This document shows positions 7,890 through 64,000 of a stretch of DNA of 64,000 nt, in pieces (positions within the stretch are counted from its first letter, which is position 1; every line of letters begins with the position of its first letter). Below the pieces are notes generated by a model that saw nothing but the letters and a program-made list of their open reading frames with translations, searched no databases and was not told the origin of the DNA. Made by a program: the position numbers and the translations under genes. The stretch is from contig FN649737.1 of NCBI GenBank assembly GCA_000310025.1, positions 3,523,851-3,587,850 of the forward strand, written 5' to 3'. The stretch is from Ectocarpus siliculosus (Eukaryota; Sar; Phaeophyceae; Ectocarpales; Ectocarpaceae).

Positions 7890-10800
7890 GGCCACCTTTC
7901 AAGATGTTGCACCTTACATGAGGTTGTTTCTTTTCCGTTGATGATGCACATGCACGAAGAAACAACATGTGAAGCTTCTCGCTGTGCGGACGCAAACACG
8001 AAAGTCTGGGCTTTCTGGAAGAGGCACGCATGCGGCATACACCTGGCGGCGAGCCTACCACACCGTAGATGAACACGACCAGCAGGGTTGACATGGGATT
8101 GTGACACGACACATGGCAAATACTGCGTCAGCCTCACAACCTGCACGCCACATCGGTCTCAAGCATTCTGAGCTTCCCGCCAAGTGAAAGCGTACAGTCC
8201 ACCACGAACCAAAAATCAACAAAAAAAGCCGTCGATGGTCAAGATGGCATGATTTTCATGCGAGACATGCTGCTGAAGCAACAACAGCATGCAGGGCACG
8301 GCTTTTGCGAAGACAGTCAGTTGCGCGGTGCAAGTAAGCTACCTGAACCGATCCCGCGGGAGACCTACTTCTTATTACGCACAGCAGCAGCACTAGACAC
8401 TCACGCCCTCGACGGTTTCTTTGAATGATGGTACGTGTGATCTGGACTTGATAAGGTGTGGTATGTTGTGTGTTCAATTGCGATCATCGGTGTGCTCTTT
8501 TTGGAGCAGTCGTTTGGACCCCCTGAAAATCAATAAACACCCGCCAGGTTACACATTGTGCATGCCTACGGTATACCCACGGTGTACAGGTCGTACAGGC
8601 CCGGCATATCCTGGTTTTCATAGCTAGTCTCGGACCAGCGTCTCTGCGGTGATGCGTTTGTTGGTGGTGTTCTTACGTCTCTGTCGGTGTTTCTTGTCCA
8701 GGTTTGATCCGCGTGCGCGCGCGATGCCCGCTTTTGGGTACGCCTTTTAGATAATAAACCCAGCGTTTGGGGAGCAAGACATACTACAAGACGTACTACG
8801 AAATTTGGCGACAGACGCCTGTGAAGCACGGCCATCTGTTGCCGAAGCACGACCAATCCCGTGCAACGAAAGAGCGCGATATTCTATTTACTTCTTCGTC
8901 GGAAGCGAACTGGCCGTCAATCTAAGCCCTACAGATCTCGTGCTGGTTCCAAAGGTGGGCAATATCGGCTTCCAGGAAACCGCGGTTTGGGGCGCCTATA
9001 TCGTGCGGCGCAAGTTTGGCCGATATTTCGAGCATTTTTTCTGTATCCTGGGGACGAAGGGAAACAATGTGGCGCTTCGCGCTCCGCGGCTCATTTCCAC
9101 GAACTACAGCTGATTGATGTAACTGTCGTCAGGCGTGTGCATCCACGGGAGGAAGTGCGTGTGATAGCGAGGGGCTCTACAGGTGTAACAGGGCCTTTTT
9201 GTTCTTGTTTTTTCCCCCTGAAACAGCAACACCGCCTATCCGAGATGTTTGGTGAAGAAATCAAACCGCATATTGGATGATGATACATTCATCATGGTCG
9301 CACCCCTATCTCCAAATATGAGCAGTACATACAGATAGCTAAACTAAACTTCCAGTGCACGTGGTGGTAGCATGGCACACGTCCCACGACAAACTAGGAG
9401 ATCGCGCCCATGAATGACGAACAAGGCTTGAAAGTAGATTCGCTGCAATACTGGAAGAACACGGCACGCCCTAGGTTTGGGTCTGACATGACGTCCCTTT
9501 CCCAATGTGACGGACCAAAACGTCCACAGCTAGGCGCATAACAACCAGGTCGCATTTTGTGTTTGCCCCTTTCCTTGTACTGACTGCGAACGATGGGTAC
9601 CCGGGGCCACATCACCGTGTTCTTGCCACCGGACCATGGGTTCCACATGCACAAAACGGTACGATGTGCTATCTATATCATTGGTTATCGCAGTAATCAT
9701 TGTTCCGCGAAGCGCACGCGGATCCCGTTACTCTCCAACGAAATGCGCTTACACTCCGTCTGCAACAGGTCAAGACGGGCGCTAGTGGAATCCGATAATC
9801 AGGGTCAATGTTGCCGTGGGGTCACGTGGTTGCCATTGTACGGCGGCATTCTTGCCATTGGCCTACGGTATGCACAGACCCAAGAACGTAGAAGGCCGCA
9901 CTGTGTCGACGGGTGTTCCCGCCATTTTACCGGACAACCGGCATTGGCGAGGGTATGAGACAACAGCTACGGTTGATCCTTCGCGTTCCGTGAAACTAGA
10001 GGTTGGGCGACTTTTTTTTTTCGAATCGTACAAGTAGAAGCGTTATGCCAAAGTGTGCACCCCGGGCTTTTTGTCTCCCCTGCGGTGCTTACATACATAC
10101 CACGCATTGACCCACGCATTGTCAAATCCTGTCGGCTAACCGCATAGCAGGAGGCTGTGTTGACCGTGTTTTGGTGCTGGCGTTTGGTGTTGCGCTGTCA
10201 TGTATAGCTGTGCGTGGAATATGTGCCTCCCATACGGCACGTCCAAATCTCATCTTACCTAACATTTTCCGGTAACTCTATCATCCTAACCAAACCTCAA
10301 ACTACGTACATGTAGTAGTCGACCATGGACGCCGTTGCCGCCCTCCGATTTGAGGGAGAAGATTCCGCCGTGAACGTCGTAACCGACAAGGAGGGACAGC
10401 TGCCCGTTGCTATTTTCGGGAGACTCCGCGAGCAAGGCAAACACCACAGCCACGGTAGAGATCGCGTAGGTGACCACAATGTAGACAGTACTTGTCACAT
10501 TGCGAACGATGACCCGCCGGTACAATGCCCCCCCTGATTGAGTGCCTCCTTGGGTCGCTCGCATTGGCTTCACAAACAGCATCAACAGGAGCAAGAACTG
10601 GAGAGGGAGGAGCGGAAGGGGCGCACGATCGTCGTCCATCACCATCAATTCAACGCATGAATTTCTTCGAAAATTCCACAAACCGACGGAAGCGAGTGAC
10701 GCTGCATTGCTTACACCAACTCTATTTCTCACTGTCGTACTATTAACCTGCTTGTACATAGTCATCATGATAGACGGTCGAGGGCGCACCAAAACGTTAC

Positions 10801-26407: not shown

Positions 26408-26571
26408 GTAAGACGCGTGTTTCCATTTCAGAAAAAGTAAACGTCTCAAGTTATTCAAGGCACATTGTTGTCACCTTCAACCGGCTTTCGCCAACTATCA
26501 ATTGAGTAAAGATATCACCCCATGTCTGACAATCATCGATGTCGGCCGACCAATTCATCGGGTAACTCGTT

Positions 26572-27390
26572 CTGCAGCCGCATCTCAAATATCGCCAAAC
26601 ACGATCACATACTGCACGTCACAATCCACACCAAAGTTCTACACCCAGCCAGAGTAACACTCCCTCAAGGAACGTACAAACAATTCCAACTCGACAACCA
26701 CCTTCAGCTCGTCGAAATACCCAACGAAGATCGCTCACCCAACCACGAACGACGCCTGAAACTCGAACACCACAAACCTGTCCGGATAACGCGCAACACG
26801 CAGAACTAGCAAGATCTCGCAGACGAAGACGTGCTGAAATACTAACGGAACGTCGACGTCGTAATGCAAACAATAACACACCACACGACTCAGACCCTGA
26901 ACTCGATATGATACGTCAACATTTTAGCCAAATGAGGAATCGAGCACCAAGGTTACCGGCACCCAGTCTAGACAGCCTTCGCGGTGATGCTAATAACCAA
27001 ATCCGCCTTGGAGTGCAATACATTGACTCGCAATCATTCGACTTCCCCTCGGCACCTTTCGAGCTAAAACACACGGATTTGGATGATCCACAAATTATCA
27101 CATGTTCTCACTGCAATGCTCAACTTTGGAAAGAAGAAAAGGGATTAAACTGTTGTAACAAAGGCAAGTCGTGTATCCATCTTCTCAAATCTATCCCCCA
27201 CCATCTTATGGCGCTGTTCGAAACTACTAAATTAATTTCTGCTCAAAGAAGGTACAACGGGCTTTTCGGATTTACTGCATTAGGCGCAGGCGGTATTCAA
27301 AAAAAGACATGGACTGAACCGCCAGCCCCTTCAATGCTCACCTTGCATGGACGTGCTTACCACCGCATATTTGACCTCCAACAACATTAG
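26572..27390 (+). pseudogene. Helitron-like transposase, N-terminal fragment
   Basis: The plus-strand frame is open from 26572 (after a TAA at 26569) to a TAG at 27388-27390; its first ATG is at 26908. It begins with an Arg/Gln-rich region containing SRRRRRAEILTERRRRNAN. It then shows the cysteine segment CSHCNAQLWKEE ... CCNKGKSC, then RRYNGLFGFTALGAGG and finally LHGRAYHRIFDL. This order is the N-terminal part of Helitron-like replication initiator/helicase proteins, just before and into the Helitron_like_N domain. The Rep HUH motif and the helicase are absent and the frame stops directly after YHRI. The region is more A/T-rich than its neighbours. I read it as a truncated, inactive rolling-circle element. 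Confidence 0.78.
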
Positions 27391-30747: not shown

Positions 30748-45062
<14,315 letters not shown>

Positions 45063-45769: not shown

Positions 45770-46924
45770 GTAATTCCGACGTTGTAAGGCCTCGTTTAAA
45801 ATATGAGAATTGTTTGTGTCCCAAAGTTGTCCACGCAATACATTTATTTCCTGTGGGTCTGCGTTTTGTCTACACAGACAGATAGATAGGTGCGCCTCAT
45901 GTCAGCGTGACACGGTGTCAAACTGCTGTATCAAGACTACGTCGTTAATAGTCTACTGCTGTACAGCGGGTACCGTAGGCGACATGACGTAAGATACCAC
46001 ACCTCCTCGACCGATTCTCAGAGCTCGATCGACTGCAGTAGTAGATACTCTGCAACGAAACAACGGCGGCGCCGAAAATGACGGCTTTGAATTTATTTCC
46101 GCAATATAGTACCATTTATTTGGCTCGGATTCCTCTTCGTGGAACAACACCAATACTGCTATATGTTGCTCACAGGAGGTTTGAAATTCGGTCCATCCAG
46201 GTGTGGTTACGACAACCTCTAGTTTTGGCCTTGGGGCTGAAGTTCTTAAGTTCGCGTGGGCTCACAAATGGTGGTGCTCACACGAGCTTATAGCTGCAGT
46301 TATTATGAGAAAGGGCGAGGACATTGCGTTTGTGCATTACGGGTGGGTGCTAGTGAAGAGTCGTCACATAGATAACATCGTAGTCAAGTGGAGCTTGGTA
46401 GGACCCGTCAACTACTTTGTTTGATCGTGTTGTACGGCGGTAGAACCCGATATTCTTGGTCGTAGAATGCATGCATATGCGTAGCTCTCAAAATATTACG
46501 TTTTGCAAGCACGGCGACAGAAGCAAAATGAAGCCGAGCATCGACGGCAAACCATTAACCATCCCGGAGAACCGCTGAAACACAAGCCTTTTCTAACCCT
46601 CCCGCAGGTCCAATCGTTTCCCGCGAAACGGACACCGCTCGCCGTCCACGGGGAAGGAACGCAGAAAACTTACGGCATACCGCTCGGCGATCGCCAGATT
46701 ATTTCCGTCGACGGTTATTGTCGCGTTGCTCTTCTTGTGCTAAGTGATACGCATGGCTCGTACAAAAGAGGAAATCTCCCTCTTCCCGCCACATCTCACG
46801 CTTGCTCATGAAACACGGCCCACAGGGGAAGTCCTCAGAGAAACACAATATCTCTTACGCATTAGAAATTCCGCTGTGATACCATTCACACCGCAAGGAC
46901 CGGAAGACAGTCTCCAGTCATGTT
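45063..46924. other. Intergenic region between the CDPK and the Tudor-like gene
   Basis: Holds the CDPK 5' flank, a (GCA)n microsatellite (45733-45768, 12 units) and a single MITE end (45973-46012). I see no further gene. The plus-strand frame across 44640-45263 is the shadow of CDPK exon 1. Confidence 0.6.
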
Positions 46925-49900
46925 CTAGAGCTTTTTCCGCAACGCCTCTCTCGCGGCGAGTTCCTTTTCGCGCTTCTTTTGCCGTTTCAACCTGTTCTTC
47001 AGGTTGGAATTTGCCTCGATGCGCGACTCCACACGCTCCACTCGCGTCTTCTTTGGCTTTTGAACCATCACCTGCATGCAAAGCCGCCTTGTTAGGGTTA
47101 GGGTTGTTAGGGTTGTTAGGGTTGTTAGGGTTAGGGTTAGGGTTGTTAGGGTTGTTAGGGTTGTTAGGGTTAGGGTTAGGGTTGTTAGGGTTGTTAGGGT
47201 TAGGGTTAGGGTTAGGGTTGTTAGGGTTGTTAGGGTTAGGGTTGTTAGGGTTGTTAGGGTTAGGGTTAGGGTTGTTAGGGTTGTTAGGGTTGTTAGGGTC
47301 TGATGGGTGCGACAGTCGTTGTCGGTGCGCTAGATGGCACGCGCTTCTTGTTCTCAGGGCGTTGCTTCAACATGTTGACCCAATCTCTGTTGGTTGTGCT
47401 GCTGCTGTTGTCATCGTCGTCGATGATGACACGGTGCCTCGATGACAACAAAGGCAGGCCTTGAAGCTTGCTGCGAAACGTCGACCAAAAATGGTACAAC
47501 ATGCCATGATAGAGACAAGGCCGCAACAGGTCGAACTGCTGCGTGCTTGCCCGGCCAGGCAGCCGGCGGGTAACGGCGAGAGGCGCGGAACCCGCAGCGT
47601 CAGCAGCCGGGGCAGCCGAGCAACGGGAGGTTACGTAAAACCCTAACAAACTACTCCGCCGCCGACGCCTGTACCAAACCAAGACCAAACTCATGTTTTC
47701 ACTTCTCGTGCGTTCTTGTGCGACGCATCAATTTCGTGGGCTTGAATTGAGGTTGGGACACATTGGTAGTGCCTCCGAAACCTCATGGATAGCCTAGGTG
47801 TTCTGCTGTTCTAGTCACGCTTCTGGCTGAACAGTACAAGTGGCATTGTAATGAACGACGCTCTAGGCAGCAAGACGGCAGTGTGCATAGAAAACACCCA
47901 TCTTGCGAATCACGTACGTACGACGCCTTACAGGCACAACACAGCGGAGAGCAGTCGACAACAGAACAACCAGTAGTGCCGAGCTCCGTTGACTAGTAGG
48001 TTGGCTCCAAAGAGACGGTCCGACGCTCGTTTCGAGCGGGTCTAGGACACGCTCCGACAGCGTAAAACAACCACGTGCAGCTAGACGATGACGCCATCCT
48101 AAATACGCATCGTTGCTGGTGCGTGCCAAAAAAGTGAACCTGGTGGAATCTTACCTCCCATCCATCGGCTTGCTTTGAGCGTTGCTTGGCCGTGGGTAGA
48201 CGGGGCGCCTCTGCCCCTGCTACTTGAAACGGGGACACAAGATGCGCACACGGACACGGAACAGAGCGTTTAGACAAACGCGTACACACACGTGGGCTCC
48301 GACAGTTTAAACTGAGAACACCAGGTGGGGGGGGTGTACTCATAGTCGTGCATGCCGTAGTCGTTAGACCATTGACCTCGCACCCCTACAAAGCTGGGAC
48401 GGAGCACGCCGGGTTCTCACCGGACCAGGCTCTCACATCACCAAGCGCGAAGCGCCGTGAGGTATTCGGCGAGTCGCATGAAGGGTGCGCTGCATCCTGC
48501 GAAGGGCGTTCGGCATCTTGTGCTTACTTCCTTGCGTACGGATGACAGCTGCGTATGACTTGATATATTTTCTGGTGCTTTCACTTCCAGAGACAGTTGT
48601 AAGCACTGTGTAGCTGCCTCGAGGATACTTTACCACTTTAACACAACGTGGTGTGATCATCCCTCTTGCGCGGAGTGAGGGTTCTCGACCCCGCACAACA
48701 TAGATCTACTCGACCACCATTATGGTTACCGCGAAAAAAAAAAACGGAGGCAAAAAAAAACGGTAACCTGGTTGCCGACTTCACGAAGTGAATTGGCTTG
48801 TTTTACAACGTCATTGCCAAACGACGAAAACCCAACCCCGGATGGCAAACACCGAGGGGGGGGCTTGTTTTACAACGTCGTTGCCAAGCGGCGAAAACCC
48901 AACCCCGATGGCAAACACCGGGGGGGGGGGGCGGGAACACCAGGTGGGGCGTGGTAATTACTTGGACTCGACGTATCCCCCACGGTTTCATTCTACATGT
49001 TGTTGTGCGACAACAGCGAGTGAGCAAAAATCTACGAGATTCACCGCTACCATCGCCGCTCATCTGCTGCTGCGTACTTGACCCTTGGGCTCTCTACTCA
49101 CTGCTTGGCACCATCATGGTTGCAAGGGGGTCAAAAGCACAGGTAGGGCAGAACAAGCCGTCGGCAGGGCGCTGAGCTGCTGGCACCACTTGCACACTTT
49201 TTCGGCCCCATCTGAGCCAGTAGTTGATTGGCCAAACCAACACAAACTAAAGCGGTTTGGCCACACCTTCATCGCTGCTGTCGCCTGAGTCGGAGTCCAT
49301 TGTCATTGCCGCCGTCGCGCCGCGGTGTCGTACGAGGGCGAGGGGTACCCTTGTCTCTCTCTCGCCGTCGTCGTACAACAGATTTACGAAGCCTCCGTGC
49401 AACAACTTTCAAACCAATAATTCGCAACAACGCGAAAACACACAGGCACGCAAAGGTCGGTCACACAAGGCAGAATGGGCGGGCCTGGTGTACTTGGGGC
49501 GGTCGCGTGTAGCTTCTCGAGCATCGACGAACAGGCAACGGGGTTCCGCAGAGTGGATCAACCTTGCCGAACCGCTGAAATCGTGACTTCATTAATACTG
49601 CCGCGAGATTGACACAGCCGGCGCGCCAAACGATATCACGGCTTCTTGTTCTTCGCACACGCACACCCCTACGGGTTGCTAGCGAACGCCGCGAATTCGT
49701 AACGCAGCACGTTCTCGAAGTCCGCCGAACAAGCCTCGGTACAAGCACTACCCTACCAGCCCTCTCAAAAGAAAGCGTTATGTTCAAAGAGGGGCAAACC
49801 TAGCTTAGAGGAGCGTCAGCGCTCAGCGGGGAGTCCCACACATGGCTGGCCGTTGCCAGTCCCCCCAGCTCTTTTCGACCCTACTTTTTGGGATACGTGG

Positions 49901-50629: not shown

Positions 50630-52393
50630 CGCACGCAGTGAGCACGCCTCTGAAACCCGAGCCCCATAAACCCAACCCAGGGTACTATCAGTTTCTATCT
50701 GCAACACCACAAAATACAGCAGTCCCGATGGTATATCCAAACCCGCCAGTGCACACCCTAACACATAAAACCGTCTGGGTCTAGCTCTGGAGGCGTTGTC
50801 ATACTACACTACTTAGTCTGCGTGCATACAGTAGTCAAGACCCGCAGCTAGGAACTACTACCTGAGAAATAGAGGCTTGAAATTTTCAAAGAAAAAAATA
50901 AGTTACGTTCACTATGTAAGCAACACGGCTCAGCCGTGGATCCTATACGAAATTCCACACAAAAAGCCGTGCCCGAAAGTGGCGATGAAATAAGAAACCG
51001 AGCCTCGACCCGATTTTGACGTTCGTTTCTTGTCTCCGGGCCCGTACGTTATTTTGGCAAAAGCGCTACCTCGTGTTGGGGGGTTTCTCCTAGGGTAGGC
51101 CACTCCTGCGCGTCCAGTTGGTGCTTGGCGCGCCGATTCTGAGAAGATCCGTCCTCGCCAGCGCGGCCTGGTGCTGCATCGCCGGCAGCAGCAGGCAGGG
51201 CCTTGCTCTTCTTGGCTGCGAGTGGTCGTGGGGCGCGTTTGAGCGTTGCAACGGCGGTGTGTGATCTCTTGAGAATATACATGCGTACCCCAACACCAAC
51301 CCGGGTGTTGCTGGGCACGCGGGTTGTAACTGAATTTGCCCCGATATGTAGCAGTAGTGGGGGAAACACGGGGACATACCGCATTGCATTCAAGTATCAT
51401 ATGTAACCTTGGGTTCCTTGAGAAGTACGTTTCCATTCTACCGGCTGCATGCGTACCTATTTTCAAAGCCCCGTTACTCTGCAGCACATAGGCTGACTGC
51501 TGTGCTGAAAATGGTGTTGGGACCTTCACGCCGAGTTGCCACAAACGTACCAATACACACAGTGTTGGGAACTTGACACCGAAGTTGCCACAAACGTGCC
51601 AATAATTTTGGTATGTGCTCTTCGTTGTGGATGAGTCGAGCTTTTAACTCGGTTCAGGGGGTGTGGTATCTTATGCAATCTACGGTTTATATAACCCGGG
51701 GGGTGAAATTACTGGATGGGATTCCATCTCTTGTACCGCTCCTGAGCAGCGACCGGATATCCGAAGGGTTTCTTTCTATTCTAGAGATGGTCGAGTACGG
51801 CAGATGGGTAGGGGCAAGGGTGAACAAAGCGTCGAGGCGGAAGGTAGACAGTCTTTCTTTGTTTTTTTCTATTAGCGTCGAGGCCACAATAGTTTTCGGG
51901 AACCGTAACAAGTTTTAGCGACGCACCCGTTTAGTGTGGACAATCCGGATATCCAATATCCAAGGGGCACATGTTGCACGGCTGTACTGCATTATGCATT
52001 TCATCACCTGTTCAATACTAAAGTGTAGACTAGTGGCCCTTTACAGGAGGTCAGCATATAGTCTAAGCGGTAACTCTGATTTTATTGAAAACAGCAAGCA
52101 CACCGCCTTTTCTATTGACACACGACTGCTGCTTTCGCTGGAAAACTTCCGACGCACCTCACCCCCCTGATACACAAAAAATTTAACCATGGGGCATGGG
52201 ACTGCACGGAACACAGATCTCCCGCACCTGCTGCTGCTTTACCCTTCCTTTTCCTCCGCTTGGACCAGTCTTTGGTTTTTCTGCCTTCCTCTGCTGTGCT
52301 GCTGCTGATCACGGAGTCGTCGTCGTAATTCTTGACCAGCAAGTACACGAACAGCAGCACGACTGCACAGAACACTAATACAGCATTAAGCAT
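46925..52393 (-). CDS. Membrane-anchored Tudor-like protein, 8 exons
   Basis: Exons, minus strand: 52393-52228, 51215-51070, 50344-50105, 49405-49267, 49179-49102, 48216-48155, 47466 to about 47302, and 47071-46925 (stop TAG at 46925-46927). Phases match through exon 6 (277 codons), and total length is about 380 aa. Order: N-terminal hydrophobic anchor (residues 4-20, VLVFCAVVLLFVYLL) followed by DDD and a basic stretch; Ala-rich linker; run of eight Glu (105-112); Tudor-like domain (about 161-213); acidic DSDSGDSSDE; a CPTC pair (241-244); Asp-rich segment with SSRHRVI; and a Lys/Arg-rich helical C-terminus (KNRLKRQKKREKELAARE). The topology suggests a tail in the cytosol or nucleus. The exon 7 donor could not be identified (see the telomere array). 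No named orthologue was recognised. Confidence 0.72.
47092..47299 (+). repeat. Interstitial telomere-type array, TTAGGG and TTGTTAGGG units
   Basis: About 208 bp of TTAGGG mixed with the 9-bp variant TTGTTAGGG in irregular order; 6- and 9-bp units alternate in clusters. It lies between exons 7 and 8 of the Tudor-like gene and starts within a few bases of the last clearly coding codons of exon 7. TTAGGG is the telomere repeat expected in brown algae. Plus-strand Val/Arg/Leu-rich frames across it are translation artefacts. Confidence 0.97.
48336..48603 (+). repeat. 268-bp dispersed repeat, copy 2
   Basis: Full-length match of 4521-4788 in the same orientation, preceded by GGTGGGGGGG. It lies in intron 5 of the Tudor-like gene. 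Copies differ by scattered substitutions and share both ends. Confidence 0.85.
48785..48935 (+). repeat. About 75-bp tandem duplication ending in G-runs
   Basis: Two copies each read GGCTTGTTTTACAACGTC, then TTGCCAA, CGAAAACCCAACCCC, GATGGCAAACACCG and a G-run. They differ at several bases. They lie in intron 5 of the Tudor-like gene. Confidence 0.85.
49267..50344 (-). other. Tudor-like domain, exons 3-4
   Basis: Exon 3 ends GVGDRVEGRFEAGAEWFPAVVTK and exon 4 begins LLHGGFVNLLYDDGERETRV. Joined in phase 0 they give the signature of Tudor/SGF29-type beta barrels: G-x-x-V-E-x-R-F, W-x-P-A-x-V, then Y-D-D-G-x-x-E. Such domains bind methylated Lys or Arg, or act as interaction folds. The aromatic residues (W, F, Y) needed for a cage are present. 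Binding specificity cannot be read from the sequence. Confidence 0.7.
50505..50687 (+). repeat. About 95-bp tandem duplication with (GA)n
   Basis: Two copies begin GGTGCGAGAGAGAG, with slightly different (GA)n lengths. They continue GTGCGCACGCAGTGAGCACG, then CCTCTGAAACCCGAGCCCCA, and end CCCAGGGTACTA. GTGCGCAC is a palindrome. They lie in intron 2 of the Tudor-like gene. Confidence 0.93.
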
Positions 52394-52736
52394 GTTGGGT
52401 GGCTTTGCCCGTGTACCCCAGCCGAACGTGCAGCCTATGGTGATTTCAAGTATGCATACATGTAGTTTCTCCCAGCACGCCACAGATCCCAAGCCAGGGG
52501 GGCACCGCAAACAGTACTGGAGGGTACCGCCCTCTTCTTGGCGGCTTGTGAGATGGAACAAACTTATGGACAGCGGTACAGAGGAGGCAGAGCCGACGTA
52601 AAACGCGACGAGGGCACGGAGGCAAGACAACGCTGGGGGCGGCGCTGAACACCACCCGACGAGACGAACGCACGCAACCTAGTGTGCGGGTGCGAGGTTT
52701 TCATCCTGCAGCCCTCCTGCACACACCGGAAGAAAA
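52394..52736. promoter_or_regulatory. Candidate bidirectional promoter
   Basis: The 343 bp between the divergent start codons of the membrane-anchored Tudor-like gene (52393, minus) and the secreted repeat protein (52737, plus). No TATA box is evident. The region must hold both 5' untranslated regions and promoters if both starts are right. Co-regulation is an inference from distance only. Confidence 0.45.
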
Positions 52737-52811
52737 ATGGGTGTTCTCCGAATATGGTCGCTTCCAGCGGCTCTGCTAGCTTCTTCTATGGCAGGCCTCG
52801 CGTCAGCATCG
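52737..52811 (+). other. Signal-peptide exon of the repeat protein
   Basis: Encodes 25 residues, MGVLRIWSLPAALLASSMAG and then LASAS, ending at a perfect GTGAGT donor in phase 0. It has a basic n-region, a hydrophobic core and an A-S-A cleavage motif, a classic secretory signal. The next in-phase acceptor with matching repeat sequence is at 55442 (VSFEEKIAQVYD), which fits a mature N-terminus. An unseen exon within the long intron cannot be excluded. Confidence 0.7.
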
Positions 52812-55800
52812 GTGAGTCCGGGGGGGGAAGCATTTGATCTTGCTCTGGCGTGAGACTTGGGGGGCAGGGTCAACTTCTTATCTCCCTGGTGCGTGCTGCT
52901 TGCGCTTTGGTCTTGTCCGCTCGCTACCCTCGGAAAAGATGGAATTTAGATGTAAAATATCTAATTTCTCCGGCGTGTTCTTCTTCTCTGCTGGCGTGCC
53001 TGCTGGGGCTCTCCTTTACTCCGCTCCACAGCAGAGATACGAAGCACCCAAAGAAGGTTAAGGGCAGCGCATGTGCGCCACGCAAAAGGAATTGCGTTAC
53101 AAGGCGTGCCGTAGTAGTGCCGGACCTTGTAGGGGCTGGCTTTGTGCGCGCGAGGGAAAGAGGCGGGGGGGGGATTGGGGCGGAGATTTGGAAGCAGACA
53201 GGAGGAGCACACAGAATCACACGTTTTCCATACCATCCGTCACACTTCCCGGTTAAAAAGTCGACACGGTGATTATGAAGGTGATGCAACACACCCATCG
53301 AAAGAACTAACACGGACAGGGGCTCCAAAACCACACAGGGAACCGAAGCATGTGCGCGGGAGGGCTGTGAACGAGGAGCCCGCTTTCCCTTTCAATCGAT
53401 CCCTCGCATGCTTTCCGGTTTTTGCCCAATTTTAGGGGGTGGATGAATTTGTTGGATTGTTTTGTACGTATGTAAAGGTCGATTTTTTTATTTTTTGCCA
53501 AAGCTGGCACCGCAGCAGTAGCAGCAGTAGGGGGGGTATGGACGAAAGCACCGCTGGGCCATAGCTGCGATGGAGCCTGCTGTAGCTGAAAGGATCCCCC
53601 CCATCCCCGCAGCAGTGCACCCTACCCTTGCAACAGCTGGGAAGCCAATCTGTTGGGGGGGATCGCATGTGTGTGTTCGGTGAGCAGCAGAGAAGAAGAC
53701 GTCGTGGTGGCGGTTTTTCTTTCTCTCCGCTCTTATGTATCTCTTCTTTAGGAGTGAGTATGTATGATGCAGCGAGATACAGCAGTAGAAATAAAACGCG
53801 ACCTCTTTCTTTTCTCGCTCTCCAAAACATACAAGGAAGGGTTGTTTGCCCGGACGCAGCGCACAATCCCCCCCTCCCCCCAGAAAAAAAAAAACAACGC
53901 TACAGTAGGGCCAAATATCACGCATAGCATAGCTGCTGTAAGCTGCTCGCGTGAGCGTACAAGGGTCTGTGTACAATATGTGTACAATACCTACCTGCGA
54001 TACCTATCCGTACGACTATGCCAGCAACATATGTATCTACTGCTGTACCTGACGACTCTCCGTTGGAGGGGCGAATGATTTGTCCTGTCCATGGTTGTGC
54101 GGCTATGCAAATTCGTCTCTCCTTTGTGTTGTGTGTTGTGTGCATACCGAAGCCGTGCCGTAGTTACCTATTATAACCCATACATACTCCTATTTGTATG
54201 TGCACAAGTGGACTATCTCTCTGCTGGGTAAAACATCAAGTAATTATGTACAGATCGGGTTTTTTATGATGTCCACGCCGAACTTTTGTGTTTTGTGTGT
54301 CCGTGGCTATAGCCGCGTGCACTCCTCTTTTGGCCCCAAGGCAGAGGCCACACGGCAATGTAATCCTGAATCACCACAGCAGCAGTTAACGCGCACAAAA
54401 TCGTTCAGCACAACGCATACGGCAGCAGTATTGTAGCCGCTACGGTTTAAGGGCGCGGGGGATCGCAGTGTCTCCTCTTCAAAAATTCAGGAAACGCCTG
54501 CGTATCTGAGTTTTCCAAAGTCTAACTCCAGTACGAAACTACCATCGAAAATTAATTGTCCGCATCGGTCGCTTGGGTTCAAAGTCAGTGTCTGAGATTG
54601 CATGTAGCCCTCGTGATACACTGCAGACTAGCGGTCCTCGATTTCCCATACAAATGCATACGATCCTTCGATCGTCGAGATCGGTGAGAGCTACAAGCAA
54701 GATTTTTGAAGCTGCTGGGCGGTCCGATTTGAAAACGCTTCAAGCACCTTTGCTTGTGGCCACATGGGCCGACTATGTATGCATATGACCCCGTGGCATT
54801 GAATCGATTACTGGCGACGAGTAGGACTGTCAGGGAAGACCTGCGCTGAAGTTGGCGGCCCCACACGCTCACATAGGCACTGGTTCCCCGTTACTGCTGT
54901 GTGCTTGAAGCGTTTCAAAACCGGAGAGCACAGGAGCTTCAAAAATCCTGCTGTAGCTCACTGATCTCGATGGTAGAAGGATCGTTTGGAATGTCGCCGA
55001 CCGCTAATCTGTTGTGTATCGCACGGACTGCAATCTCATGTACGAAGTACTCTGTATTAACATTGTACACAATCGACAGCTGCGGACGGTTATGCGATTG
55101 TAGTATCGTACTGAAGTTATTAAGAATTTTGGAAACTGAGATATGTTGGCGTTTCCTGAAATGTTCAGGGAGTTATTGCGATCTCCCCCGCGCCCCTAGT
55201 GATTGTAAGAGAAATCGAATGTATAAGGAGAGTGTTTTTGGCTTCTCCCGTTCATGAGAAATACACACACCACATACATATGCTACACACAGGCAAAAAG
55301 AAGGGTTTAAGAGCGAACCGGATTAAGGAGGGTGATTTTTGCTCGTCTCGACCATATCTCTCATCGTAGCCACTACGCTTGTATACATGATCATGCCGCC
55401 GCTCCCTCGCTGCCTCGTGATGCTCGTGATCCTTGGAGTAGGTGTCCTTCGAGGAAAAAATTGCTCAGGTCTACGACGTGGCTCCTAAGGTGCGCATCGC
55501 AGGCAGCGGCTTCGACGAGCTCGACGCCGCCTCCCTCAAGCTGTCCTTCGCGCCGAAGCTGAAGGAGGGCGAGGACTACAAGGTGGACATCCAGAGCTCC
55601 ACCGTCATGGTGCTCAACCTCCAGTCCGGCAAGAAGTAAGTGCAGTAGGTTTACACACAAGTTCCGTACAACACGTGCTCCTGTATTGCGATCACGACAT
55701 GACGTGGTGGCACCACTGCACCCCGATTCTACAGTATACCGACACAGCCTGCCCTGAATACCTTATCCCCTCCTGGCAGGAGTAGTGCTGAAAAAGGGAC

Positions 55801-58800
55801 TAATAGTAACAGGGGTCGCCAAACCGAGCCCTTTACTGGTGCTAAAGATGTATTTTCCCGCAAGTTTGTTCGTTTTTGTCTAAGGTCTTCCCTGTTACAA
55901 TTTCGTTTTTTTTTTTTGGTATGACGTCAAGATATTCACTTGAGGAGAACGCTCGTCTCCTCAGCCGCGCTCGCTTGGGAGCAGAGCAGCGCATGCAGCA
56001 CTACTGCTGTACGTATGTCCGCTCGGTGTGCGCGTTGTGTGTGTGTTGGTTGTAGTAAGGTTATATTCCAATTGAACGCTTCCAAACTCGCTACGGCAGT
56101 TAGGAATTTTCAGTATGCATGTATGCATGTATGCATGTATGCATACACGCTATTGCTGCCTACGGTACCTTGTGCGACGGTCTGACCAGGAGGTACTGCG
56201 GTCGCAGCTGGGAGGCCAAGGGCTCTATTATTATATAAACATGCTTCTATGCGTTTTTTATGGATAAAGAAGGCCAACCCATCAGACTACAAAGTCAGCA
56301 ATTTGATTTGATTTCTAGTTTCTCCGCAAAGGGTTCTCCCCTTCACACAGATAGGAGATAGGGTGGCATCGGTGCGCATGTTTCTATAGTTACACCGCAC
56401 ACGGCTTCGTTTTTCTTTTCCGTGTGTGCTTTTTTCCCACTCTGTGTACAGATAAATTAGCGCCTGCACGTACGCAAGATAACCCCCAGTTTTACCTCCA
56501 AGTCCCTCTTGTGGGCTTGCTTCACGATGGCCGCCGTACTAAATGTTCATACTAGGAGTTCGTGTAGGGAGTCTTGAACTTGCTGACTCAAATTCCCTAT
56601 GATGTTGAGCATGAAAATTGCTAGCTGCCAGCGTCTTTCAAATTGTGGGCGCTAGCTACAATCGCATTGACGACTCGGGCGGGGTCGACAGGGCTGGCAA
56701 TGTTGTAGCATGAAAGTTCTTGGTTGCGCGCTAGCTACCTGTATCGTATTCATGCGGGGTCGACAGGGCTGACAAACGGCGCCCATGTTCCATGCAATGT
56801 TGAGCATGGACATTCTTACCTCCCAAGTTCTTCCAGGTGTGGGCGCTAGCTATCTACGTCTACATCACTGGGTACATTGTAGACGACTCATCATGTGGTG
56901 CTGCGTTTCCCGCTGTCGTGCTTGTGATTGACTCCTGTAAGGTGGATGTCCCTGGACGATGGCGCATCTCCCACGGGACTCTACCTCTCCTCCGCAAAGG
57001 TTGGCGACCTCGGCCTGCTCGAAGACTCGGTGCAGGTGCGTTGCCCCCTCTTTTTTTTTGTTTGACAACACGAATCCATCTTTATCTTGTAGTGTAGTTG
57101 ACAATAATCTCAAGATGGATTATTATAGCATTGGATTCATAGCGTCAGAGTCAGCTACTTATTTATTTTGTCAAACATTATATTGGTCCTGGCCGTCGGT
57201 CCTTCCACCACAACTCTGGCCCCTGCTAGCGCCACTGGACGTTGGGCTGTGCGCCGAGAAGAAGCAGGCTCTTGACCCCTCTCAACACTGCTGTTACACA
57301 CGCTTGTTAATATACATGTTCTACGTCTGTTGCCCCGCCCGTTGATTTTTTGTTGTTTTGCTTGTGTTGCGTGCAGATCGCCACCATCGTGCCCTCCCCC
57401 ACCGTGGAAGCCTCCTCCAAGCCAATCTACATGCAGACCACCCCCAAGTGCGTTGTAAAACCGGTCAAGTCAAGAGGCATCGATTCGCTGGCCTCGCCCA
57501 GTTGACCGGGGATATGTCTATACAGCACACCAAGTGCACAAAGAACATGTTTTTCCCTTGTTGCGTGTGTCATCAATCACTGTTCTGTTTTTGCAGATGC
57601 ACTTGAACGAATTAAGTCAAGTACAGCAGTGGTAGCACGTTGAACGCGCACGTTTCTGGCAATTGCCGTGTGTTTTGCTGCACGCTGTCTGAACAACAAT
57701 TCTCGCGCGGACTGTCGAGACTTTGTGGTAGTGATGTCGACGCTGTTGTTGTTGTTGTTGTTGCTGTTGTTGTTCACTTCTTTGTCGACGGCCGCTGACT
57801 GGTCCATTTGAACGGAACAGGCTCATCGTCAACGGAACGAACTTCAACACCAAGATCACGGAGCTGTACTTCGACCCCCCTCTGCAGGAGGGCGTCGTCA
57901 TCCAGAAGAAGGTACGGTACGGTACTTCTTACAGTGCTAATTGTAATCAATACCCTATTATGTCATAGGAGGCGGAGAGATGGCACCCGCCTCGACCGAT
58001 GTTGAGAACTCGATCGCTCCACACCCAAGCTTGCGCCAACACCAAAAACGGTGGTTTTGGAATCATGTGGTTGAGGGCGTTCCGTAGATGTGCCGGGCGC
58101 TTTCCGCACTCCCTTAGTTGTGGAGCAAAATAGAGATTTTAAAGTCGGTCTGGGGGGGGTGCCATCTCTCCGCCTCTTGCGGTAGTAGTCAAAAGCTGAG
58201 TATTAAGTTGTATTTTGTTTTTGGGTTCTGTAATGTGTTTCTCAAACAGACAAAACATGGCATTGGACTGCTGTTAACAGATTTGTAATTTTTGCCTTTG
58301 AGCTTGTTAGGTTCGCTCGGCTCTTACTTTTTTCTGTTGGGTTCTTCGACGTTCGCTGGGCTCTTGGAGTAAAAAAACACGTCCGCGGTGTGAGCATTGA
58401 AAACATCGGACCCCCATAGCCAAGCGAACGGTCTCCCCCCCCCCCCTCCCCCCAGGTCTTGTCGCCAACCCAGATCTCCATCACCAAGAACTTCAAGTAT
58501 GACAACCCTTACGTCTGGGCCGACGAGCCCGGACCGCTCAAGATCGTGGCGATCAACACGGGCGGCGGTCGACTCTCTCTCAACTCTGACGACGGGGGCA
58601 TTGTGATCGCCGAGGTGCAAGCGGACCTTGACCACCATGGCGTGACCGTGCAGGGCCACGAGAGCCTGGACCTATACCAGTCGAGCAAGAGCTTCCAGAT
58701 TTCGGGAAGCGGGTTCGTTGACGGCACCAAGGTAAGGCGCGAGCCAAGGGGCTCTTTGTCTGTCCGATGAAAGCCAAGGGCGGGTGGGTGGATGGGGGAT

Positions 58801-61800
58801 GCAACCCTTGCTCTTCTCGAACGGTTTGTAGCCAATGCCTTCTACCAGTAGTTATTTTCAAAGAGACTGCTGCGAACAGATTGGCAGTTTTGCTTCGTGG
58901 TTGTTGTACGTTGGTTCGCTGGGCTCTTGGAGTGATGAATCAATCCTTGAGCTGTGTGAACTGTTGAGTCTCAGGCAGTGTAACCAATGCCATGTTGTTG
59001 CATTCGGTATGGTATGACTACTGTATACTGGTTTGTTTGTTTTTTTTTAGGCTCGCTGGGCTCTTCGAGCCAAAAACTCTTGCAGCTGTTTGGCTTGAGA
59101 AACGCTGGCAGCCAGCTGCGGGCTGGTCCTGCTGACTGCTTCCGTCGTCATCTTCCATCACCCCTTGATGGCACTGTGCCCTCATGAGTCCACTGCGGAG
59201 GGACCACGGTTACCAAGCGATGTGTTTCGCGTGCGGGTTTGTGTTTGTTGTCCGTTTCCTGGGCACGGTTTTTCGTGGTTCACCTTTCCCACGCGGTACG
59301 CTTAACTGTAGGCTCACTCGTTGCTCGATAGCATCCAGACATCAGGACAGCCTAATCTCAAACCAAACCAACGGCCGTGGCTGCTTTCTGTCCGTTGATT
59401 CTGCGGTTACCGTGAGGTCTGCCTCTTGGCGGTGTTGTTCCGGAGAGACAACGAAGTACACGGAGGCAGGTCCGCCTCTGGAGACACTTAACAGCAATCG
59501 TGTGATAGTGCAATCACACATTGTTTCTTACCCTCATGTTTTGAGATTTTGTTTCATCTGTTGACAATCACACAGCAATTATTTGATCACGCAATCCCAC
59601 GTCGATGCACGTCATTTTGGGATTGTTTGTGTTTAAGACACTCAGAGTAGTAATACACTCACACACGTGACCAGTTACGGTTTCGTCATTCCAACCATTG
59701 TCATTGTGGCGCTGTCTTGTGTTGTTGTCAGGTGCGTTTCGCCAACGCTCTCAGGGGTGGAGGGACCAACTTCACCATCACCGACTCGCAGCCCGAACTG
59801 CTCACTCTCGAGCTGGCGGAGGGGAGCAAGTGGCGCAAGGTGTGTGTGTCTGTGTGTGTGAATGCGTGAGAAATTGCCATGTATTTTTTTTGTTTTTGTG
59901 AGCATTGACTCGGTAACCGGCCGAGCAATGAAAAGACGTCAGTCTGAGTTTGTGTGTGTTGGTCTTGCGCTATCGTCCGTCTACCTACCTTTCGGTTTGT
60001 ACGTTTGTGAGGCACGAGCCGGGGTCACACCGGGATGTTTTTCCCGTTTTTCGTTGTTGCCTGTCGTGACTGTTTTTTGGTGGCGTTGCGATCAGTGACT
60101 GACTGGCGGTTGTTCCCCTCCCGTGTCGTACAAGTATGCATGCAAAGCAGCCACATAATTCTCTTGTCTCTTTCTCTCTTTTCTTATCGCTTTAAACCCA
60201 ATCAGCTCTTAGTACACATTCCTATCGCTGAGGTTTCCTACTGACCCGTCTTGCGGATGCTTGGCTCTGCCGAAACAACGCGTCACGAACGTAACGCTAT
60301 GATAGCGCCCTGCCCGGGAGCTCTCGTCGCAACGCATTGGCATTGGCCCCTTCCCAAGATTTTATAGACACACGATCGACTAACTGCGTGACTTGTGTTT
60401 CCGCCTGTGTATGCATTCGTGCGCTGTCACGGCTCCCTCCCGGAAAAATAAAAACAAATGGACAACAGAACCCTAGCGCCCTGCCCGGAGCCCTCGTGCT
60501 GCTGGCCGCCGATTCGGGCGACGGCTGGGTGCCTCTCGGTCCCACCCAAGCCAAGGCCGGGTCTAAGGTTGCCACAGTGTTCGAGGACCCCAGCGTGGAG
60601 GCTTCCGACGTCGAGATCTACCGCACCCACACGCACGAGCTGCAGATCAGGGGCACCGGGTTCAACAAGGTTGTACGCCCCGTCCTCGATTTCGAACCTG
60701 CGCTCGACTCCACCAGCGTCTACGTAGAGGTGAGTAGACTGCTTGCTGTGTAGTGCTACAGTTTTCGTTTTCGTTTTTGGTTCGTTAAGGTTCGCCGAAC
60801 TATTCGAGTGAAAAAACGCGTCTGCTGTGTGAAACGTCACGCCTTGATGGCGCTACAGTACTACATTTATTTCGTGAGCCCACACCGAAAGGCGTCCCTT
60901 GTGTGTTGTGTTTGTTCCGTCAGCATCTATTACGCGTAGATGCGAGTATTGTAGAACGTGTTGTATGGCGTGCTCTGGTATGTTGACGTGTCCCGGCAGT
61001 TGACCTCTCATCGTGTCCTTTGGTAACATCCTCTCTTTCGCACCCCATTGATGTTGTGATCGTCTGTGACGTCTTTTTGGGATGTCACGCTGAAGGTGGT
61101 CAACCGCACGATGATCACGCTGAGTCTGTCCACCACCTCTTCTCAGTGGACCGCTGATGAGAACGTCGGCGACCTGACCATCAAGGTACTGTGCTGCATG
61201 CGGATAGGTTGTGATTTTAGCCGGGCGTCGATGGTTTTCTCTGCCCTGGTGTAGAAGGTGGTGTATTGTATTGTATTGTATTGTATTGTATTGTATTGTA
61301 GAATACCACTGGTTGTTGAAGAAAGTCGTTGATTGGCTAGAGCGTAGCTCCCGCGCCCCCGTCACCTAATTTCCAAGGCAGGGTACGGCATGACCATCAA
61401 GGTATCAAGGTCTGTAGTATGTCACCGGTTTCCTTTCCCTGCTGTACCATCGTTTATGCGGAGCTGGCAAGGGTATGTATACCGTGCTGCACACCTTCCC
61501 CTAAAACGAACGCAGGAGAGTACATGGCGTGTTGGTACTTGTCCGGGGCGTGACGCGGGATAGCTGTGCGTTTCCCCCCCGGGGTTGAGTTGAGAAACGA
61601 TCACAAGTGCAAGGCGTCTTTGTGGAAAAATGTCGCAAAGCTGGTGTGAAAGTTGTTGTACTTTGACGGACGGTGTCATTGCGGGGTCATGAACCAGCCC
61701 CGTTATTGTCCTCAGTCTCGGTTTATCCTGACAAACCTTGCGGCTGACGATTGTTTTCATCGCTCATGTCTTGGTGTGTGTGTTTTTTGTTGTCGCCCTC

Positions 61801-63589
61801 TGTGTGCGCTTTTTCGTCCCAGGGATTGGACACTGGCGCCGGGATGGTGACGTTCGACTCCCCGGTGACGGTGGCGAAGGTTGTCTCGGACTCGGACGTG
61901 CACGAGAGCGGTGTGCAGGTCTACCCGTCCTACGGCCAGCCCAAGTACCAGGCAAGCCCATGCCCACCTAGCCGTAAAAACTCTACCCCTATCAAACAGA
62001 AGGAAGGAAGGAAGGAAGGAAGGGACGATTGGACATCGGCCATCGGCCATCGGTCGTGTGGGAACAATGCTCGGTCCTCTCGAGGAGGCGTGGTCAATGG
62101 TCTAACCGCTAAGGCATGCAAAACATAAGAGTACGCCCTATAGCCAGGCGAGACCATTTACTCGCTCGCACGCGGGAGGGACCTCAATCTAACCAGGGAA
62201 GCCCATGATTTCGCTCGTACTCGAGAACCGCAACGCTAGCAGCGCCCGCATGCTGCGCTGTACTGTAGGTACGTGTAGCCATTGTTCGTCTCTAATCCAG
62301 ACATGCAAGAGTCTAGGATTATTGTGCGTAGGTGGAAAGCTGCTGCAAAACATAGCACTCTCAGCTCCCAGCAATGCAGTATTCACCCGCCAACGACTGG
62401 AAAACACAAGACCCAAAACGATTCCTGCCACCGGCATGCTCATGTGTTGTGCTGCTGTCGACGATCGGACAATACAGGCGTAAAAAAACACCTGTTGCGT
62501 TTATTTTTCTCTATTCTTACCTACCTACGGGAGTGTCCCTCTGATGTGTTTTGTTGTTTTTGTCGGCGGTCCGGTGTTTTCTTTCCACAGTCCTCCAAGC
62601 AGCCGCTCCAGATCCTAGGCACTGGTTTCAAGGGCGAGCCAGTGCTCAACTTTGACCCGCCCATCTGGGCCCCCGACAACTACACGGTTACCGTGGTGTC
62701 CGAGACCGAGCTCAAGCTCGACCTCGCGGACGGTTCCCTGTGGAGCAAGTACGGGGGTACTCTGATGGTGAAGGGCATCAACGTCGGCGATGGCGAGGTG
62801 ACGACAAGAAACGTTATGTAGCGTCTGCACTTTATCCTCGTCGTCGTGGGAAGATAATATGTTCCTCCCTGCAGCAAACACGGCGTTTTACAATGCTATC
62901 ATTGAGTCTTCCATGAACAAACCCTCGTGTGATCACCGTTTTGTCCTCCTATACAGCAAGCACGGCATTTTCAATGCTATCATTGAGTCTTGTTTGAGAC
63001 AAACCTTTGTGTGATGACCGTTTTACGTGTGGTCCCTGAACAGCAAGCACAGCATTCCATTGCTATCATTTGAGTCTTCCACAAACAGTTATTTGTGTGT
63101 GATTACCGTTTGATACGTGATATTTAACTCTTTTCTGTGAGGTTTCTTGAGCATGTTTGGAAGGCGTTTTTGATGAGGGAAGAGGGATTGATTTGTGGCG
63201 ACGCCGTGCGTGAAAGAGTGAAAGGGGACGCAAAATCCTCCCTCCGTCACTAGTGTACGCACCTCTCAAAGATGTTCACTGAATCCCACACGGTTTTAAT
63301 TAACACTCGGCACTCCCCCCCCCAATCCCGTGCGCGCTTGCGGCACGGTATGCGGCGCGGTATGGAACGAAACATAACCGACTGTCAGATCGAGCTCGGC
63401 GGTGGTAAGGGCGTGAAGGTCGCCACCATCCTCGAAGATCCCACCATTACCGAAGGCGAGATGCACATCTACACCACCCACACCAAGCACTTCCCCGTCC
63501 ACGGAACCGGCTTCCAGTCCGTCCTGGACCCCAGCAGGCCGCCTACCATCGTCATCGACGGCATCTCTTCCTCCAACTACAAGATCCAG
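52737..63589 (+). CDS. Secreted IPT/TIG-like repeat protein, 12 exons, 3'-incomplete
   Basis: Exons: 52737-52811, 55442-55635, 56942-57035, 57377-57447, 57821-57911, 58456-58731, 59732-59839, 60469-60729, 61096-61185, 61823-61951, 62591-62797, 63389-63589. Phases agree at every join, giving 599 aa, and the frame remains open at the last donor (GTGGGT), so the gene continues past the window. A signal peptide is followed by at least six units of about 105 aa. Each unit has an I-x-G-[ST]-[GN]-F core (positions 46-49, 150-153, 259-262, 365-368, 473-476, 571-574), an L-x-F-x-P segment, a L-x-L-x-L-x-x-G-S-x-W segment, and VAT-[VI]-x-x-[DP]-P-[ST]-[VI] before the next core. This resembles extracellular immunoglobulin-like IPT/TIG folds. 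A surface, wall or adhesion role is an inference. The link from exon 1 across the 2.6-kb intron is the weakest join. Confidence 0.85.
57969..58176. mobile_element. About 208-bp MITE in intron 5 of the repeat gene
   Basis: Inverted ends start GAGGCGGAGAGATGGCACCC on the left and have the same sequence, reverse complemented, on the right. The internal CTCGACCGATGTTGAGAACTCGATCG resembles the sequence just inside the 45973 element (CTCGACCGATTCTCAGAGCTCGATCG). That links the two as a family with different outer ends. Confidence 0.8.
58312..60840 (+). repeat. Intronic segments shared between introns of the repeat gene
   Basis: A segment of about 60 bp containing GTTCGCTGGGCTCTTGGAGT and AAAAAACACGTC recurs at 58312-58405 (intron 5), 58905-58985 and 59048-59090 (intron 6), and 60778-60840 (intron 8). 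The best-preserved copies are 58360-58405 and 60785-60835, both followed by a GTGTGA motif. Confidence 0.7.
61262..61301. repeat. (TATTG)n microsatellite
   Basis: About seven TATTG units in intron 9 of the repeat gene. Confidence 0.95.
61952..62590 (+). other. GC-AG intron (intron 10 of the repeat gene)
   Basis: The donor reads CAG|GCAAGC and the acceptor CCACAG. Joining TACCAG to TCCTCC restores the repeat (KYQSSKQPLQILGTGF) in phase 0, matching LYQSSKSFQISGSGF of the previous unit. The donor keeps the strong consensus expected of GC donors. It contains a (GAAG)n run (62001-62021) and an inverted relative of the repeat at 33793-33893. Confidence 0.8.
62868..63120 (+). repeat. Three diverged ~80-bp tandem repeats, intron 11 of the repeat gene
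   Basis: Each copy contains CAATGCTATCATTGAGTCTT (third copy CCATTGCTATCATTTGAGTC), a variable middle, GTGTGAT and ACCGTTTT/ACCGTTTG. Copies start near 62872, 62957 and 63042. Confidence 0.85.
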
Positions 63590-64000
63590 GTGGGTTGGTT
63601 GGCAACCGCGTAGACGTCCATGACAGCACATTTTTCTTGTTGATGGAAGCGATTTTTTTTTGTTGTTGATGGCACAGCGTTCTTTTTTTTTTCTTGTGGC
63701 GTGGGGATGTAGGGGAAAAGGCATACGGTGGTAGATGGTGATGGTGGAGAGTCGATGGGAGGGACGCAAGACGAGAAAACTAGACAACGCCGACGGTCTG
63801 GTCTGGTCTGGTCTGGTCTCGTTCTCGCCAATAAGGCGGCTGGTCGGGCGGGAAAGATGATTATACTAGAAGAGGGAGCTTGTAGGGTGTGGGGCCTTGA
63901 TGCCTTGATGCGGTTCAGTCATGGGTGAGGCGGCGCTGCGAGATGAATATGATCACTCTCTCTAGGCCCGGCTCTCTATCACTCTCTCTCTCTCTCTCTC
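63590..64000. other. Intron 12 of the repeat gene to the end of the window
   Basis: Contains T-runs, a (GGTCT)n run (63797-63819) and a terminal (CT)n run (63980-64000). The next exon is not in the window. Confidence 0.7.

Follow-up and report, generated by a model that had tools for sequence, protein, structure and literature searches.

Receptors of the plexin/MET and fibrocystin type carry a signal peptide, a tandem TIG (IPT) ectodomain and a single membrane span, and the gamete adhesion proteins FUS1 and GEX2 combine a signal peptide with several immunoglobulin (Ig)-like domains and one membrane span. Repeat arrays of this sort usually serve adhesion or recognition. Here we describe a gene of the brown alga Ectocarpus siliculosus that begins in, and runs beyond, a stretch of 64,000 nucleotides (assembly GCA_000310025.1, contig FN649737.1, positions 3,523,851 to 3,587,850, forward strand; this whole stretch is "the window" below). 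Its predicted product would share with plexin, MET and fibrocystin a signal peptide, a tandem TIG-like ectodomain and a single span, and with FUS1 and GEX2 a signal peptide, Ig-like domains and one span, the comparison being one of layout. Unlike plexin, MET and fibrocystin, the 599-residue model lacks Sema, PSI, G8, kinase and GAP domains according to Pfam. At about even odds (a probability of roughly 0.5), we read the gene as encoding a type I single-pass membrane protein whose ectodomain of TIG-like repeats has an elongated adhesion or recognition role; in this reading, we infer the Ig-like fold, one transcript across a run of N, the topology and the adhesion role.

The genome searched (189 Mb in 492 contigs, referred to as C8, C12 and so on; the window gene lies on C12) contains 91 Pfam TIG matches over the cut-off, none of them in the window gene. 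Compared with the IPT/TIG (PF01833) arrays at C19 and C12:573-618 kb, the window repeats are alike in their I-x-G-x-[GN]-F core, their G-P-L-x-V strand and their tandem layout, but they stay below the Pfam cut-off, lack the P-x-x-G-x-x-x-G-G-T lead-in and have signatures of their own, P-[ST]-V-E-A-S and I-D-T-G-A-G. The ordinary TIG domains at C19:644-662 kb and C12:573-618 kb form giant open frames of up to 5199 codons.

Twelve exons of a tandem-repeat gene

The exons of the repeat gene inside the window occupy 52737-63589 on the plus strand (all coordinates without a contig are window positions), with splice sites picked by consensus and frame. A preliminary description, made from the sequence alone, had proposed twelve joinable exons, and these indeed splice to 1797 bases, that is 599 codons without a stop (Table 1). 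Donors are GT in 11 of 12 cases and all 11 acceptors are AG, the sole exception being the GC donor of exon 10 (CAG/GCAAGC; the slash marks the splice position), which lies in a strong context and whose homologue on C14 uses a GT donor at the identical position. The GC donor was chosen because the join then reads PKYQ/SSKQPLQILGTGF, matching LYQSSKSFQISGSGF within exon 6. Introns between the 12 exons are mostly of phase 0 (nine of 11), the other two being of phase 2. The proposed signal peptide likewise held up, by eye and by its conservation in a duplicate on C8 rather than by a predictor.

Six repeat cores begin at residues 44, 148, 257, 363, 471 and 569, with spacings of 104, 109, 106, 108 and 98 residues. 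The repeats and their period of 98-109 residues were thus as first described, while the core given at the time, I-x-G-[ST]-[GN]-F, proved slightly too strict: the first residue is I in four cores and V in two (VNGTNF, VHGTGF), so that we use [IV]-x-G-[ST]-[GN]-F. When the repeats were compared with each other, eight of 15 pairs beat all 300 shuffles; for the remaining seven, which are weaker in part through the incompleteness of the cut-off repeat 6, between 1 and 93 of 300 shuffles reached the real score, the worst pair being R1-R6. The 599 residues include four N-glycosylation sequons and no cysteine. In line with the absence of a recognised catalytic domain noted earlier, the model matched no Pfam family at E values up to 10, and NCBIfam gave chance-like matches only. 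The tandem-repeat gene is real, and the architecture of the repeat protein is fairly secure.

Relation of the repeats to TIG domains

The preliminary description had seen a resemblance to IPT/TIG folds, and for this we found weak, non-random support at the level of profiles; the Pfam TIG cut-off was not reached. Two repeat alignments of 14 rows each, A2 and A6, were compared with a TIG alignment from the same genome (A3; nine stretches from five of eight loci, L002-L004 being left out as they gave no open frame). The rows of A6 were chosen anew once the A2 score was known: repeat 6 and the three R3-type repeats were dropped, and two repeats each from C27 and C8 were added. Profile-profile comparison with TIG gave scores of 22.6 for A2 and 26.2 for A6 (P 2.3e-4). 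For A2, the best of 200 shuffled TIG profiles scored 17.0, and reversing TIG gave 7.9; for A6, none of 500 column-shuffled TIG profiles (maximum 17.2) and none of 200 shuffled A6 profiles (maximum 18.2) reached 26.2, and reversed TIG scored 10.3. Over 66 columns, TIG and the repeats stayed in register, both at the G-x-[GN]-F core of the second strand and at the G-P-L-x-V strand late in the repeat. By these profiles, the repeats are probably distant TIG/IPT-like modules of the immunoglobulin fold.

Several results weigh against this assignment. The profile-profile probability was 18% for A2 and 44% for A6, and, the A6 rows having been picked after the A2 score, the higher A6 score may partly reflect that choice. 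No Pfam family came over its cut-off; below the cut-off, Pfam TIG matched one of the 14 A2 repeats (E 0.034) and none of the 14 in A6. The lead-in that marks most TIG rows of A3 was absent from the consensus of both A2 and A6. In sequence searches of the PDB (E up to 10), the only chain reached by A2 was the NFATc4 chain 2yrp, which we take to be a TIG domain, at a non-significant E of 0.54, and this sole lead was gone with A6. NFATc4 is a nuclear protein without a signal peptide. Structure prediction, run on single exons, gave models too weak to tell whether each repeat forms the expected beta-sandwich: exon 11, aligned with three other exon pieces, came out all-beta with five strands and no helix of four or more residues at a mean predicted local distance difference test score (pLDDT) of 57, and exon 8 alone gave five strands at pLDDT 45. 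Foldseek was uninformative, with no match at E <= 0.001; among its 252 matches at E <= 10 the top one, an Hfq chain (E 0.56), is in our view meaningless.

The repeats could instead belong to some other beta-sandwich family, be it filamin-, Calx-beta- or fn3-like, that does the same kind of structural job. When A6 was scored against single sequences, nine TIG sequences gave 8.6-21.0, two filamin sequences 15.1 and 13.3, and one Calx-beta sequence 12.5. Only five of the nine TIG sequences thus beat the better filamin, and TIG does not stand cleanly apart from other beta-sandwiches. The A6 search of the PDB points the same way, its matches including, besides VP24 (E 0.42), a chain of a Na/Ca exchange protein (E 1.2) that is presumably a Calx-beta domain. 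Given the register of core and late strand with TIG, however, we consider such an origin somewhat unlikely, and the argument for TIG as against other beta-sandwiches is modest.

Downstream exons and the proposed membrane protein

The gene had been predicted to extend beyond the window, and it does so: past base 64000 lies a run of 1669 N, flanked by simple repeats and low-quality runs, and then further exons. Four of these, each flanked by AG and GT, carry cysteine motifs and, in the last of them, a hydrophobic stretch (Table 1); none matched a Pfam family over the cut-off. The hydrophobic stretch IFVDVLWAMVVLVGCSMSL has a mean Kyte-Doolittle hydropathy of 2.18 over 19 residues, as against at most 1.04 in the repeats, and by this measure, rather than by a predictor, its exon is probably membrane-spanning. 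As this exon ends in a strong donor, the gene goes on. Beyond the N run, the opening exon is short of two bases that an upstream exon must supply, while exon 12 ends in phase 0; if the gene continues across the run, at least one exon must therefore lie inside it.

Signal peptide and hydrophobic span are both present, and are joined across the N run by analogy with C14 only. A single relative of the cysteine exon came up in the genome at E <= 0.01, at C14:207.7 kb (68% identity), and at C14:206-210 kb (minus strand) cysteine and hydrophobic exons follow in the same order as downstream of the window. The first exon there reads GIVIAEVRKDDATFNCEDSCVYANDGQCDEDR in one open frame from AG acceptor to GT donor, preceded by a split glycine codon. 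It holds both GIVIAEV, identical to part of window exon 6, and the first cysteine motif, so that the cysteine/membrane part can follow repeats in this repeat family. Upstream of this locus lie 22.5 kb of N, and an unbroken full gene was seen at no locus. A repeat half at C14:272-280 kb, which also runs into N, lies about 62 kb from the half at C14:206-210 kb. The two C14 halves are perhaps one gene split by the assembly.

These observations suggest how the protein may be built. The signal peptide would direct it to the cell surface, where at least six tandem, cysteine-free repeats of about 105 residues would build up an extended ectodomain. Next to the membrane would come one or two cysteine-rich modules (C-x3-C...DGxCDD...GTDCxDCG), then a single membrane-spanning helix and a tail that could not be followed to its end. 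We propose an ectodomain reaching toward the wall or a neighbouring cell because of the signal peptide, the sequons, the cysteine-free repeats, the membrane-proximal cysteine modules and the single hydrophobic span. The outer repeats would then most likely tether the plasma membrane to the wall or a neighbouring cell, in adhesion or recognition.

The preliminary description had favoured a secreted extracellular or wall protein, of which the signal peptide and the repeats stand. That it is simply secreted was not supported, since a cysteine-rich and hydrophobic module follows and the C14 exon links this module to repeat-like sequence. Still, the repeat protein might be soluble, secreted into the wall and end inside the N run, the cysteine and membrane exons being a separate downstream gene. 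The signal peptide fits such a protein, and the 1669 N do part the repeats from the cysteine and membrane exons. Other loci add to the difficulty for a membrane protein: neither cysteine nor membrane exons turned up in the 17.6 kb that follow the repeats at C27 or in the 20.6 kb at C8 (an incomplete copy), the sequence past the repeats at C14:272-280 kb is 15.2 kb of N followed by 16.6 kb without a match, and the hydrophobic stretch on C14 is weaker, with a mean hydropathy of 1.55. Yet one C14 exon holds repeat-like GIVIAEV together with the first cysteine motif, and the first exon after the N run, needing two upstream bases, cannot start a gene as it stands. We therefore regard two separate genes as unlikely.

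The strong donor of the membrane exon, after which more exons must follow, would also suit a signalling receptor whose cytoplasmic domain lies further 3', such as a receptor kinase or a channel. However, ten downstream open frames (69185-79910) matched no Pfam family at E <= 0.01, these being ten of many frames among which short exons may be missed, and a signalling receptor seems distinctly unlikely.

Cysteine motifs of the EsV-1-7 type occur at least 150 times in the genome (150 scored of 880 candidates) and not at all in 14 control genomes. The EsV-1-7 family is expanded in brown algae, and the motif count makes a brown-algal genome probable. A gene for the RuBisCO large subunit, looked for as a placement marker, did not turn up in the assembly.

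Relatives, neighbouring sequence and significance

Searches with two repeat peptides (E <= 1) placed relatives of the repeats on the minus strand of C27 (2.41-2.42 Mb) and of C8 (0.72 Mb) and on the plus strand of C14 (275-278 kb). With these and two cysteine-exon peptides as the only queries, the number of loci is a lower bound. Exon-by-exon comparison widened two of these to C14:272-280 kb and C8:720.6-727.4 kb. C27 has at least ten repeat cores, in one or more genes, whose recurring order resembles that of window-gene exons 4-10, and splice positions agree across the loci, e.g. directly before the V-[NG]-R-T motif. At C27, three GC-AG introns were among the best-scoring joins (after reverse-complement positions 9225, 9921 and 15225), as after window exon 10.

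The C8 locus (minus) is a duplicate of exons 1-6 in which order and neighbouring sequence are kept. Over 231 aligned codons, a count that excludes the opening residues of exon 3 and the final, diverged third of exon 6, the C12 and C8 copies differ with a synonymous rate (dS) of 0.263 and a nonsynonymous rate (dN) of 0.116. The ratio of 0.44 suggests selection on the reading frame that is not strict. The C8 copy has a TGA in its exon 6, and for exons 7-12 only background scores (23-28) were obtained across 20 kb, with a peptide look at 10 kb more also empty. This incompleteness would suit a decaying gene, or an artefact from joining unrelated open frames, but 12 stop-free exons with conserved splice sites and the dN/dS of 0.44 make either very improbable for the window gene.

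Outside this genome, no relatives were found in viral or genome contig collections, using one peptide of 55-87 residues per search and exact back-translated words, by which only close relatives are detectable. Similar GTGF...DTGAG repeats may also occur in other stramenopile genomes.

Table 1 Positions of the repeat-gene exons, the exons past the N run and other features (window numbering, continued past base 64000)
Feature	Position	Strand	Description
Exon 1	52737-52811	+	Start codon and signal peptide MGVLRIWSLPAALLASSMAGLASAS; 22 of 25 residues the same in the C8 duplicate; donor TCG/GTGAGT
Exon 2	55442-55635	+	Repeat 1, core IAGSGF; 84.6% identity to C8 across 65 residues
Exon 3	56942-57035	+	Repeat 1 end; C8 homologue with compatible splice phases
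Exon 4	57377-57447	+	Repeat 2 start (IATIVPSPTVEASS); homologues on C8 and C27
Exon 5	57821-57911	+	Repeat 2, core VNGTNF; homologues on C8, C14 and C27
Exon 6	58456-58731	+	Repeat 2 end (GPLKIVAINTGGG) and repeat 3 start, core ISGSGF; homologues on C8, C14 and C27
Exon 7	59732-59839	+	Mid-repeat 3; homologues on C14 and C27
Exon 8	60469-60729	+	Repeat 3 end and repeat 4 start, core IRGTGF; homologues on C27 and C14
Exon 9	61096-61185	+	Repeat 4 (VVNRTMITLSL); homologues on C27 and C14
Exon 10	61823-61951	+	Repeat 4 end (LDTGAG) and repeat 5 start, then GC-AG intron; C14 homologue ends identically, LYQ/GTGTGC
Exon 11	62591-62797	+	Repeat 5, core ILGTGF; all-beta prediction of low confidence; direct homologue not found at C27, C14 or C8, similarity to other repeats only
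Exon 12	63389-63589	+	Repeat 6, core VHGTGF; phase-0 donor CAG/GTGGGT; resembles exon 8 (1.7e-9)
N run	64001-65669		1669 N
Post-N exon	66679-66802	+	CDVGTDCTDCG
Post-N exon	67614-67718	+	DGTCTNTCQHARDGYCDDPRASGVCPSGTDCQ
Post-N exon	68183-68368	+	DCGPWGDGNSNFT...
Post-N exon	69236-69391	+	IFVDVLWAMVVLVGCSMSL, hydrophobic; ends in strong donor GTGAGT
Divergent open frame	52112-52678	-	Contains MLNAVLVFCAVVLLFVYLLVKNYDDD; ATG at 52393
Helitron-like open frame	26566-27390	+	274 residues; CSHCNAQLWKEEKGLNCC...YNGLFGFTALGAGG...LHGRAYHRIFDL
EF-hand pieces	32489-33325	-	EF-hand_1, 25.5 bits (cut-off 25.4)
Simple repeat	46744-47445	both	NPN... on one strand, LGL... on the other

Next to the repeat gene, a divergent open frame without a Pfam family has its ATG 344 bases from the repeat-gene start codon. 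Elsewhere in the window, one open frame resembles, by eye, the N-terminal part of a Helitron helicase (no Pfam family); calcium-binding EF-hand pieces perhaps belong to a CDPK-like gene; and a long simple repeat reads NPN... on one strand and LGL... on the other.

Among the papers searched, the one with both "TIG domain" and "brown algae" (PMC8204020) reportedly deals with a giant virus in the genome of an oomycete. Under the terms tried and in the one library searched, no title or abstract concerned this TIG-like repeat family, and no paper treated GEX2, brown algae and gametes together; the main text of PMC4700764, considered for gamete receptors, has no occurrence of "TIG", "IPT" or "immunoglobulin".

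In the window gene a familiar building block is put to use in divergent form, and the gene is little described. As a wider and doubtful proposal, it may represent a brown-algal family of adhesion receptors, arisen by duplication and shuffling of exons, mostly in phase 0, that encode a divergent Ig-fold repeat, and serving cell-cell, cell-wall or gamete recognition. For specialists, the surprise would lie only in a demonstrated adhesion role in brown-algal multicellularity. This lineage became multicellular on its own, and such a family, if true, would be an independent counterpart of the Ig and cadherin adhesion proteins of animals. Cell-wall and cell-cell linkage in brown algae are poorly known, and long membrane-anchored repeat proteins would be concrete candidates for it.

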